Positions 8,019 through 10,574 of a stretch of DNA of 10,574 nt are shown piece by piece (the stretch's first letter is position 1; each line of letters opens with the position of its first letter). Made by a program: the position numbers and the translations under genes. Below the pieces are notes generated by a model, which did no database searches, was not told where the DNA came from, and was given only the letters and a program-made list of their open reading frames with translations. This stretch comes from Methanobacteriota archaeon (GTDB lineage: Archaea; Thermoplasmatota; Poseidoniia; Poseidoniales; Thalassarchaeaceae): NCBI GenBank assembly GCA_002712645.1, contig PAUH01000005.1:6475-17048 (forward strand). The letters are read 5' to 3'.

Positions 8019-8065
8019 GTGCAGCAATAGACATCATAGGAGTGGCTAACATAGGATATCTATAC

Positions 8066-8641
8066 ATGCGTAATCTCGGACATAGACTTGGCGCATCCGG
8101 AACTAAATTTGAGAATACCATACAGGGCCTACATAATTCATTCAGTATGGTCTCAAACCCCAAATTCAGATACTGGGAATTCGATGTTAGGGAATCCGCT
8201 GACGGAGTCTTATTCGTCTTTCATGATGATCATATATGGGCTAAGGGAGAATGTATGAACACCCGTAATATGAATATGTACGATATTATCTCAGCAGGCT
8301 GCGAAATTGACATAGCCATACCAACTCTTGAGCAGGTGATATCCGAATTGGAGTGCAGGGAGGAACCAGTGATGGTGGAGATAAAGGAACTAATATCAGA
8401 CTCATGCAGGGACGAAATCATCAATTCAGTTGCCGGGAGAAGGGGATGGAAGTTGATGGCTACTCCAGAGAGATTCGATAAGTCGTTTCCGATCAATGGT
8501 CGGAATCGATGGAGCGAGATGGCCAGCCTGAAAGATGTAAAGCTGGTAAGGGTGGGGAGACATAGGGCACAACTCTTCAGATTCTCAGATTCAATTCTTG
8601 GAAGACTCTACTTGTATCCTAAGTGGCTTTTTGGATTCTAG
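8066..8641 (+). CDS. Short glycerophosphodiester phosphodiesterase (GDPD) family protein
   Basis: GDPD enzymes cleave glycerophosphodiesters to glycerol 3-phosphate and an alcohol. Numbered from the ATG at 8066 (191 residues), the family motifs are present. They are GHRLGAS (5-11, catalytic HR), FENT (15-18, usually PENT), WEFDV (37-41, metal-binding E and D), FHDDH (52-56, the second catalytic His) and VEIKE (104-108). Typical family members have 230-250 residues. The C-terminal third, where the last barrel strands should be, is short and poorly matched, so the barrel may be incomplete. The start at 8066 has AGGAT eight bases upstream. A GTG at 8042 is an alternative that would add eight residues, but its AGGAG overlaps the codon itself. 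Activity is plausible but uncertain. Confidence 0.78.
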   Translation: MRNLGHRLGASGTKFENTIQGLHNSFSMVSNPKFRYWEFDVRESADGVLFVFHDDHIWAKGECMNTRNMNMYDIISAGCEIDIAIPTLEQVISELECREEPVMVEIKELISDSCRDEIINSVAGRRGWKLMATPERFDKSFPINGRNRWSEMASLKDVKLVRVGRHRAQLFRFSDSILGRLYLYPKWLFGF

Positions 8642-8735: not shown

Positions 8736-8746
8736 GATATATTTTA
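8736..8746 (+). promoter_or_regulatory. TATA-like box of the transferrin-like operon
   Basis: GATATATTTTA is the best TATA-like match in the 148 bases between the GDPD-like gene and the ATG at 8790. With usual archaeal spacing, transcription would begin near 8765-8770 and leave a leader of about 20-25 bases, containing GACGAGG just before the start. A second A/T-rich stretch (AAATTTTATTT, 8756-8766) could instead give a leaderless transcript. The rest of this intergenic region shows nothing else clear except the adjoining dyad. Confidence 0.55.
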
Positions 8747-8758
8747 GGCAAGCCTAAA
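8743..8758. promoter_or_regulatory. Iron-box-like inverted repeat overlapping the TATA region (candidate DtxR/IdeR-family operator)
   Basis: TTTAGGC-AA-GCCTAAA is a dyad with seven perfect base pairs per arm around a two-base centre. The TTAGG/CCTAA arms are the half-sites of DtxR/IdeR-type metal-dependent repressor boxes, as known from bacteria and from archaeal relatives. It overlaps the 3' end of the TATA-like box, so a bound repressor would block the basal transcription factors. The gene it controls encodes a transferrin-like protein, which makes iron-dependent repression the simplest reading. I noticed no other copy in the window. Confidence 0.6.
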
Positions 8759-8789: not shown

Positions 8790-9851
8790 ATGAACGTAGA
8801 CGACGTGACAAGTTGGGCCCAAGCAAACAAAGCAATCTCAATCTCAATTTTACTGCTCCTTGGAGGTGGATTTTATCTTCTTATGTACGAGCCTGATTAT
8901 GATTCTTGCGAAGAAGGCAAGAACTGTTTGACAATCGCATATCAGGTTCAGGAAGACTACCAGGTTTGGGATAGCAATCCTCAGCATTTGGCTGATAAGA
9001 TGAGTATTTTGATGGGAGATGACTGGGATGTTGAAATTTATCCAGTTAGCGATTCAGGACCGCTAATCGAGGCTATAGACAAGGGTAACGCCGACATCGG
9101 ATTCGTAGATGGGGCTGCTGCATGGTTAGCTTGGGAAGTATACGATTTGGACGTTCTCGCTGCTGAGACGAAATCAGACGGCAGGACTTACTACAACGCC
9201 GCTGCATGGGTGAGGGCCGATTCGGACATGGCTGCAGCATATTTGGACGATGATCCGGACACAGATCCATTCGCCCTGATGGAGGGCAAGCGGTCATGTC
9301 ACACTGGCTGGTTGAAGAGTGCAGGCATGCTCATACCGATGGGATATCTGATTGGAAATGGGTATGCCGAAGTCAAAGGTGATGATCCGACTCATATCGA
9401 TTCCTTGGAGGCCACGGTACACGGATTCTTCTCCGAGGATTCCAGTATCCCGAGGGGTAGCACCCCGTATTCATCTTACAAAGGCGCCATGAGGTGCATG
9501 ATGGACGGGACGGGAGATATAGCGCTTGTCAAAGATACAGTATACGACACATATTGTACAGGAGACGATGCGTACGAATGGTGCCTAGATAGGGACGAGG
9601 TCGTCATGCTAGAACCATTCGGACAGGCACCCAGTCATCCGGCGCTTTACAATCCAGACAACATGGATGCAGATGCTGTAGTTGCCGTACAGAACGCCCT
9701 CGCCGCGTTGAATGATGATAGTGAGGGAAGCGAAATACTGTGGGATCTCCTATACACAAATGACATGGTGCCTACTAATGCAGAAAACCATCTCGGTACA
9801 TATGGCGCAGCAGTTTCCAACGTGCCCGGTATTCAAGCCTACTTCGGGTGA
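8790..9851 (+). CDS. Membrane-anchored, single-lobe transferrin-like iron-binding protein (PhnD/transferrin superfamily)
   Basis: The 353-residue protein has one hydrophobic segment (about 14-33) as signal peptide or anchor, then an acidic domain the size of one transferrin lobe. Against human transferrin N-lobe (from memory), the order of motifs is the same. GNADIGFVDGAAAWLA matches ADAVTLDAG (ligand D107). TYYNAAAWVRADS matches FYYAVAVVKKDS (ligand Y134 or Y135). KRSCHTGWLKSAG matches KKSCHTGLGRSAG (anion-site T172; Arg replaced by K176). YSSYKGAMRC matches YFGYSGAFKC (ligand Y230), GDIALVKDTV matches GDVAFVKHST, and GQAPSHPAL matches AQVPSHTVV (ligand H283). C170-C236 matches a known transferrin disulfide; C40/C46 and C256/C265 may form two more. 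Ferric iron with a synergistic anion is the likely ligand. Phosphonate-binding PhnD proteins share the fold but not these motifs. It heads an operon with the downstream dehydrogenase-like gene. Surface iron capture is inference. Confidence 0.82.
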   Translation: MNVDDVTSWAQANKAISISILLLLGGGFYLLMYEPDYDSCEEGKNCLTIAYQVQEDYQVWDSNPQHLADKMSILMGDDWDVEIYPVSDSGPLIEAIDKGNADIGFVDGAAAWLAWEVYDLDVLAAETKSDGRTYYNAAAWVRADSDMAAAYLDDDPDTDPFALMEGKRSCHTGWLKSAGMLIPMGYLIGNGYAEVKGDDPTHIDSLEATVHGFFSEDSSIPRGSTPYSSYKGAMRCMMDGTGDIALVKDTVYDTYCTGDDAYEWCLDRDEVVMLEPFGQAPSHPALYNPDNMDADAVVAVQNALAALNDDSEGSEILWDLLYTNDMVPTNAENHLGTYGAAVSNVPGIQAYFG

Positions 9852-9858
9852 ATATCCG

Positions 9859-10574
9859 ATGAGAGTTTCACTCATTGCCGCGATTCTCGTGCTGTCGACA
9901 GCATCCAGTGGCTGCATGTCCGGGTCTGACGAAGCATACGAGTGGCCAGATCCCGTTTCTGGGAATTGCAACCTAGACGAGTTTTACAGTTTGGGATGCG
10001 AACTCTTACTGGAGGCTTTTGATATCCCGCATCAGTCGCTGATTAATCCGGCCACCGGCGAATTATGGATTGTATATTTGAGTGGCTACATCAAGTCATG
10101 GGATGGCAATAATCTGGAATTAGTCGCAGACTTGAGCATGATTGTGAACCGCTGTCACATGGAGCAGGGCCTCCTCGGGGTAGTCTTCGAGGATGATTTT
10201 GAAATGACGGGGGAAGTCTTGTTATCGTACGTCAATGAAGGGCCCTGCGCAGGGCCCAACGAGTCAAATCTTGTCCTGGCGTCCATTAATGTCGACAGCG
10301 AGGGACATCTCGACCCTTCAACTATCGTGATACTGAAGGAGATTGACCAACCATATAGGAACCACAATGGGGGCTACCTGCTCCCTATCGGCGACCATCA
10401 GTATCTGTGGGGTGTCGGTGACGGAGGGGCTAGTGACGATCCACATCAGAATGGGCAAAATAACTCGACCCCCCTAGGGTCAATCCTATTGTTCGCATAC
10501 GAACAAGGCGGTATCAGCCCCGTAATGGAAAATCAAACTGGGGATCAATATATCCTCCATAGTGGCCTGAGAAA
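9859..10574 (+). CDS. PQQ-dependent glucose/sorbosone dehydrogenase-like lipoprotein (3' truncated by window edge)
   Basis: The frame is open from ATG 9859 to the window end, giving 238 residues. Residues 1-19 form a short hydrophobic signal ending in a lipobox-like SSGC (C19), so the protein is probably exported and lipid-anchored. The rest follows the GSDH/HHIP six-bladed beta-propeller family. Visible motifs are QGLLGVVFEDDF (103-114), HNGGYLL (169-175) and WGVGDGGASDDPHQNGQN (184-201), which correspond to HNGGxL and GDGGxxxDPxxxxQ in soluble aldose dehydrogenases. The HNGG histidine is the expected catalytic base. Four more cysteines (37, 47, 99, 130) suggest disulfides. GGTGA at 9847-9851 contains the stop of the transferrin-like gene and lies seven bases before this start, pointing to coupled translation. 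Real PQQ use and substrate are unknown; some family members are non-catalytic binding propellers. Confidence 0.85.
   Translation, partial: MRVSLIAAILVLSTASSGCMSGSDEAYEWPDPVSGNCNLDEFYSLGCELLLEAFDIPHQSLINPATGELWIVYLSGYIKSWDGNNLELVADLSMIVNRCHMEQGLLGVVFEDDFEMTGEVLLSYVNEGPCAGPNESNLVLASINVDSEGHLDPSTIVILKEIDQPYRNHNGGYLLPIGDHQYLWGVGDGGASDDPHQNGQNNSTPLGSILLFAYEQGGISPVMENQTGDQYILHSGLR
10240..10257. repeat. Perfect 18-bp palindrome inside the dehydrogenase-like gene
   Basis: GGGCCCTGC-GCAGGGCCC is perfectly self-complementary. It coincides exactly with six codons (Gly-Pro-Cys-Ala-Gly-Pro, residues 128-133), in a predicted loop of the propeller. It may be chance, a protein-binding site or an mRNA structure. 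Confidence 0.7.

Follow-up and report, generated by a model that had tools for sequence, protein, structure and literature searches.

Transferrin is usually presented as an animal protein, with algae included by analogy; FbpA/FutA-type proteins serve as binding proteins of ferric importers of the ATP-binding cassette (ABC) type. Here we describe a transferrin-family lobe in the Poseidoniales (Marine Group II), a type of archaea that is abundant in the surface ocean. The window, that is the whole stretch of 10,574 nucleotides that was analysed (contig PAUH01000005.1 of assembly GCA_002712645.1, our contig C12), comes from a 1.55-Mb genome that is 86.7% complete with 6.3% contamination. Its gene at 8790-9851 codes for a transferrin-family lobe that very probably binds ferric iron for a PhnCE-type importer and is regulated by iron.

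The window protein resembles animal transferrins (serum, ovo-, lacto- and melanotransferrin) in its fold, its Asp/Tyr/Tyr/His positions, its SCHTG loop, its C170-C236 pair and its PF00405 match. It differs from them in having one lobe, a lysine in place of Arg124, an N-terminal membrane helix and a shorter stretch between the anion helix and the second tyrosine, and the archaeal system has PhnCE-type ABC genes under the same predicted iron box. With PhnD, PtxB and HtxB of the PhnCDE-type importers it has PF12974 in common, but STS is replaced by K/T-S/G-A, the His of the STS-H motif by Tyr (within one column) and the capping Asp205 by His. The algal phytotransferrin/FEA1 proteins (PF07692) form a different domain family, which the window protein does not match up to E 1; the likeness here lies in a FEA1-type lipoprotein found under the same box in the same genome. 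FbpA/FutA-type proteins belong to yet other families and are likened to it by their job alone; none was among the best 50 fold matches, an absence that proves nothing.

The initial annotation had claimed a transferrin-like lobe in an archaeon, and this claim is well borne out. PF00405 matches the 353-residue protein with 59.9 bits (E 3.1e-16; curated cut-off 20.3), phmmer searches of the PDB found bovine lactoferrin at 2.6e-21, with transferrin-family chains in all of the best 60 of 94 rows, and the predicted model has the two-domain lobe fold of the family in fold comparison. PF12974 also matches, with 67.1 bits (E 2e-18; cut-off 27), so that, judged by profiles, the window protein is simultaneously a PhnD-family binding protein. 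PF00405 was found in 0/14 control genomes against 12/14 for PF12974, and E. coli PhnD and three other PF12974 proteins gave no PF00405 match up to E 10, a range in which the HMMER filters drop most matches above about 0.1; the PF00405 match is thus not a chance one. Contamination by animal DNA was rejected, given the archaeal neighbouring genes (lysyl-tRNA synthetase class I and aIF2-beta flank the locus, judged archaeal by reading of the frames), the spread over archaeal groups and the occurrence of a transferrin gene (locus L024) in the Poseidoniales assembly AG-404-A19, presumably a single-cell genome. The features of the protein are the following:

8790..9851, forward strand: single-lobe transferrin-family protein, open reading frame of 353 residues (profile, structure-chain and fold matches)
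8829..8885, forward strand: N-terminal membrane segment, residues 14-32 (model helix 14-32; hydropathy maximum of 1.97 at residues 15-33)
9108..9110, forward strand: D107, counterpart of the Asp ligand by alignment (Asp in 258/289 lobes, Ser in 18, Glu in 8)
9192..9194, forward strand: Y135, counterpart of the first Tyr ligand by alignment (Tyr in 283/289)
9297..9299, forward strand: C170, expected disulfide partner of C236 (codon 9495-9497; 285/289 lobes each)
9303..9305, forward strand: T172 of SCHTG, anion-site Thr (289/289), followed by K176-SAG, which opens helix 177-189
9477..9479, forward strand: Y230, counterpart of the second Tyr ligand by alignment (277/289)
9636..9638, forward strand: H283 in APSH, counterpart of the His ligand by alignment (278/289)

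These counts concern 289 of 382 domain hits, kept after removal of duplicates, of hits shorter than 230 positions and of hits with X; the profile was built from 58 rows (alignment A1) that are themselves among the proteins counted. By alignment, the complete iron-ligand set is present as D107, Y135, Y230 and H283, and the His lies in APSH where animal chains have VPAH, VPTH, IPPH or VAAH. The earlier ligand assignment therefore stands, with T172 and both cysteines, except for Y134: we rejected it as a ligand because this position is Tyr in only 180/289 lobes against 283/289 for Y135, and the first Tyr of the animal HYYAV pairs with Y135 in the HMMER alignment. The anion site has T172 and, at the position of the animal Arg, the basic K176 (CHTGWLKSAG against CHTGLGRSAG in animals); K176, S177, A178 and G179 are conserved in 265, 269, 276 and 287 of the 289 lobes. 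The C-lobe of melanotransferrin likewise has no anion-site Arg (SCHAGFGSPAG). C170 and C236 align with the core-disulfide pair of the animal proteins, the pair being known here from the alignment. In 31 further lobes, mainly of haloarchaeal type, Y135, T172, Y230 and H283 are all kept (31/31) and C170 is missing in 13.

How does this site relate to that of PhnD? According to PMC5700983, the STS-H motif and a hinge Tyr contact the oxyanion in the PhnD/PtxB family, and Asp205 is a capping residue. In our joint alignment (E. coli PhnD numbered as the mature protein, assuming a 26-residue signal peptide), Y135 falls in the column of Tyr93, H283 in that of Asp205 and Y230 in that of Glu158, which adjoins His157, while the PhnD STS (127-129) falls on K176-S177-A178. 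From this column correspondence, the transferrin site lies over the PhnD oxyanion site with the STS-H motif gone: the window protein has K-S-A and Y at those columns. The carbonate site would thus occupy the place of the PhnD-type oxyanion site, with the metal ligands at or next to the ligand-binding and capping residues.

This closeness gives some ground to the idea of a phosphonate, phosphite or phosphate binding protein of a PhnCDE importer that is merely transferrin-like since the folds are close: PF12974 scores slightly above PF00405, the partner genes are PhnC/PhnE-like, PtxB ties in fold Z, and relatives are often labelled "phosphate/phosphonate" by the sources that name them. The initial annotation had itself set a clearly better PhnD-family match against its reading. 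PF12974 is indeed a little higher, yet the protein lies far under the phosphonate-specific cut-offs (19.6 of 261.1 bits for TIGR03431 (PhnD), 33.7 of 112.05 for TIGR01098) and lacks the STS-H motif, and since both PF00405 and PF12974 exceed their cut-offs this objection is not cleanly applicable. The metal ligands are conserved, the box is of an iron type and no PhnJ match was found in the same genome. On the missed NCBIfam cut-offs, the absence of STS-H and PhnJ and the four ordinary PF12974 proteins without PF00405, we rejected a plain phosphonate binder, which we regard as very improbable.

The N-terminal membrane segment and the iron-box-like promoter that the initial annotation had reported were both recovered. 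Two features precede the gene:

8744..8757, no strand: DtxR-type iron box TTAGGCAAGCCTAA, a perfect palindrome 32 bp upstream of the transferrin ATG
8738-8746: TATA-like stretch TATATTTTA, overlapping the iron box

TTAGG...CCTAA is what we take to be a DtxR/IdeR-type box. Among relatives in the genome_contigs set, the exact box lies upstream of 29/36 transferrin frames that have upstream sequence, the seven others being the two-lobe paralogues of L015-L017, L020, L023, L024 and L027. In loci from other genomes (L032-L061, without L048, which has no upstream sequence) it is exact in 26/29 and present in 28/29 when one mismatch is allowed. The two counts are not independent, since some genomes are common to both sets and many are close relatives. 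With up to one mismatch, the other gene families tallied that had usable members gave 0 hits, except the FEA1 family (10/11), the ABC ATPase family (11/18) and two families adjoining these genes (5/14 and 3/19).

All four exact boxes of the genome stand at three gene sets: the transferrin gene, the FEA1-type lipoprotein gene, and the genes for an ABC ATPase and a PhnE-type permease. The FEA1-type gene (contig C22, L066 5698-6981; PF07692 7.2e-15) has two boxes 45 bp apart, and the box of the ABC genes lies inside the frame as called, 4 bp before that frame's first ATG. According to PMC7972479, the FEA1 domain belongs to iron-assimilation proteins of algae, and phytotransferrin is a relative of these; the archaeal FEA1-type lipoprotein is predicted to belong to the same regulon as the transferrin. 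A profile search found one DtxR gene over the cut-off in the genome. In L074 the transferrin, ATPase and permease genes diverge from a DtxR gene, with three boxes in the gap, and in Natronococcus occultus a DtxR gene is followed by a transferrin-type stretch, an ATPase gene and phnE. On the plasmid of the latter (L080 7001-8022), the transferrin-type copy is frame-broken and no gene is listed for it, in contrast to the adjoining DtxR, ATPase and phnE genes, which are listed.

The likely role of the lobe is that of the binding protein of an ABC importer, since in some relatives the gene shares an operon with those for an ABC ATPase and a PhnE-type permease. In L072 the transferrin, ATPase and permease genes overlap end to start, and the same order occurs in L028-L031, L073-L075 and L046/L070 (in the last pair the ATPase was recognised by frame reading); in L071 the ABC genes come first, and in L069 the transferrin gene is followed by a permease recognised by reading of the frame. 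Both partners are thus found, under the same box in the window's genome and in operons in relatives. The permease of L027 scores 233.7 bits with the PhnE profile, above the cut-off of 216.7; for two ATPases the nearest profile is PhnC, though they stay under its cut-off. Profile searches of the window's genome found no other PF12974 match and no FecCD, FeoB_C or PhnJ match, absences that are weak evidence because that genome is 86.7% complete.

Family, fold, box and gene links were computed; iron binding, carbonate and transport we infer as follows. Under iron limitation, a DtxR-family repressor would leave the box. The lobe would close on one Fe(III) held by D107, Y135, Y230 and H283, with a synergistic (bi)carbonate bound by T172, K176 and the N-terminal end of the helix that S177 opens. 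Once closed, the lobe would dock on the PhnE-type permease with its PhnC-type ATPase, and the iron would be taken in. We consider this whole explanation, an iron-regulated, membrane-anchored single-lobe transferrin on the outer face of the cell that feeds a PhnCE-type ABC importer, to be likely. The prokaryotic ferric-binding surface system proposed earlier is retained as the reading that best fits the data.

Several observations weigh against it. Besides the slightly higher PF12974 score, the exact box occurs 4 times (4+4) in the genome against 5 (5+5) for the reversed control, so that it is enriched in placement only and not in number, and in L069, a locus from outside the class, no box was found even with two mismatches allowed. 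In the genome itself, the transferrin gene lies on another contig than the ABC genes, and one in-frame stop breaks the PhnE-type permease frame (L067 6952-7827, contig C16); this frame is uninterrupted in relatives such as L014 and L027. In 7/11 genome_contigs loci where a transferrin gene abuts ABC genes, it is the two-lobe paralogue without its own box (L015, L016, L017, L020, L023, L024 and L027, a form found in relatives of the window's own family). That paralogue has lost the iron ligands in 5/5 C-lobes listed, and its two N-lobe representatives carry Phe in the column of Y230 and Asp in that of H283. The position of the animal Arg holds Lys here and, in haloarchaeal-type lobes, mostly Thr, Ala or Lys. 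Ser replaces D107 in 28/31 of the further lobes and Glu does so in eight lobes (in seven cases the second lobe of a two-lobe frame, in the other the single lobe of L031), and L071 lacks Y230. Loss or change of iron ligands in a lobe also occurs in some animal transferrins.

The separation of the transferrin locus from the ABC genes, in this genome and in many relatives, would also suit a stand-alone surface scavenger or store that passes its iron elsewhere, for example to a ZIP-domain protein or a reductive route, and that would be the same as our explanation until the last step. A boxed ZIP-domain protein beside the transferrin in L014, the ferritin in L024 and the broken permease frame point the same way; the direct operons in other lineages, the shared box and the lack of another PF12974 match in the genome argue for the importer, and we hold the stand-alone protein to be unlikely. 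The variation of D107 to Ser or Glu and of the Arg position to Lys or Thr raises instead the binding of another metal or ferric complex (Mn, Fe-phosphate, Fe-citrate, a siderophore) in place of Fe(III)-carbonate, as does a Leisingera plasmid operon beside mntR whose binding protein keeps only Y, Y and H of the ligand columns. Most lobes, however, have the full D/Y/Y/H set with the Thr/SAG anion loop, a gene with the algal iron-assimilation domain stands under the same box, and a ferritin-family gene adjoins the transferrin gene in L024; we judge another ligand to be quite unlikely.

We also asked how the transferrin-family protein is distributed. The homologue list holds the best 120 of 575. 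For the lobe comparison, 58 representatives at 70% identity were kept. PF00405 was found in 113/389 Thermoplasmatota genomes: by our own tally 44 are of the window's family, 63 of another family of the order, 3 from elsewhere in the class and 3 from other classes, and 12 genomes of the window's family are listed without it. The 29 relative loci in genome_contigs come from assemblies titled Euryarchaeota, Poseidoniales, Poseidoniaceae or Thalassarchaeum, apart from one titled Pedosphaera that is probably mis-binned. Haloarchaea with relatives include, as named by the sources, Natronococcus amylolyticus, Halorubrum vacuolatum, Natrononativus and Natronorubrum.

On profile scores (PF12974/PF00405, in bits), there is a gradation from PhnD-like to transferrin-like forms, also within the archaea: E. 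coli PhnD has 268/none, Natronococcus 128/33, a distant Thermoplasmatota protein 113/70, the single-lobe protein of L074 94/72 and the window protein 67/60, and a whole two-lobe Poseidoniaceae protein reaches 93/123. The strong similarity to animal lobes could suggest that archaea acquired the gene from a eukaryote; this series, the presence in several archaeal groups and the operons with ABC genes make such a transfer extremely unlikely. As a side observation, a Leisingera plasmid (L081 1499-6287) carries mntR and genes for a cytochrome c peroxidase, a PhnD-like binding protein, an ATPase and phnE. In the binding protein, three of the four columns of transferrin ligands are occupied by Tyr, Tyr and His, similar hits occur on other Roseobacter-group plasmids, and this operon is perhaps a bacterial metal importer of intermediate type.

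Two-lobe relatives, with open frames of about 690-820 residues, are frequent in the same order, which led us to reject an exclusively single-lobe family. A tree built on 65 rows groups the six animal lobes, whether N or C, in a single clade and puts the halves of archaeal two-lobe proteins elsewhere, and thus the animal and archaeal lobe duplications look separate. A second tree, built without the duck lobe, the C-lobe of melanotransferrin and three lobes that lack the ligands, again joined the four animal lobes (support 96). Attempts to root the family gave no settled branching order of animal and archaeal lobes: with E. coli PhnD as sole outgroup the animal lobes fall among the archaeal ones (root branch 6.5), with the Leisingera protein added they fall outside them (support 44, long branches meeting), and their grouping with Ser107 haloarchaeal-type lobes is not rejected (p-AU 0.664). 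Neither the frequent two-lobe forms nor these trees establish the single lobe as the ancestral state, as was proposed at the outset.

Taken together, these data allow a wider proposal, to which we give somewhat less than an even chance. Transferrins may have begun as binding proteins of prokaryotic PhnCE-type importers, in which a PhnD-like oxyanion pocket became the carbonate site and the hinge Tyr and the positions of other ligand-contacting residues came to supply the iron ligands, the lobe later being taken over by eukaryotes. In marine Poseidoniales the transferrin importer would be a main ferric uptake route, and two-lobe forms would have arisen independently of animals, with later ligand loss in one branch, as in animals.

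If the iron-binding importer reading is true, animal transferrins would have close microbial relatives. With an archaeal member in the regulon of an ABC importer, the family would extend into the prokaryotes and gain a concrete link with the PhnD-type binding proteins. This would also name a ferric uptake system for a surface-ocean archaeal group where sources write "phosphonate". Ferric uptake would be tied to carbonate and therefore to ocean acidification. Among the best matches in one open-licence library (titles and starts of abstracts), no paper on an archaeal or prokaryotic transferrin was found. The reading is testable, since relatives occur in cultured haloarchaea.

One further feature of the window follows the transferrin gene:

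9859..10572, forward strand: glucose/sorbosone dehydrogenase (GSDH)-type lipoprotein, running off the window (PF07995 1.9e-8 for 9862-10572)

It starts 7 bp past the transferrin stop, and in 24/29 loci the gene right after the single-lobe one is of this family. In the window (8042-8641) and in 19 related loci, the transferrin gene has a GDPD-type gene immediately upstream or at one gene's remove. In L014 (5535-7856), a gene that fuses an M28 peptidase to a ZIP metal transporter adjoins the transferrin gene and has its own iron box, and a ferritin-family gene lies directly upstream of the transferrin gene in L024 (7470-7904), as also in L023 and L027. Finally, one protein (P0099) joins a ParB N-terminal domain to a transferrin lobe, perhaps through chimeric assembly.
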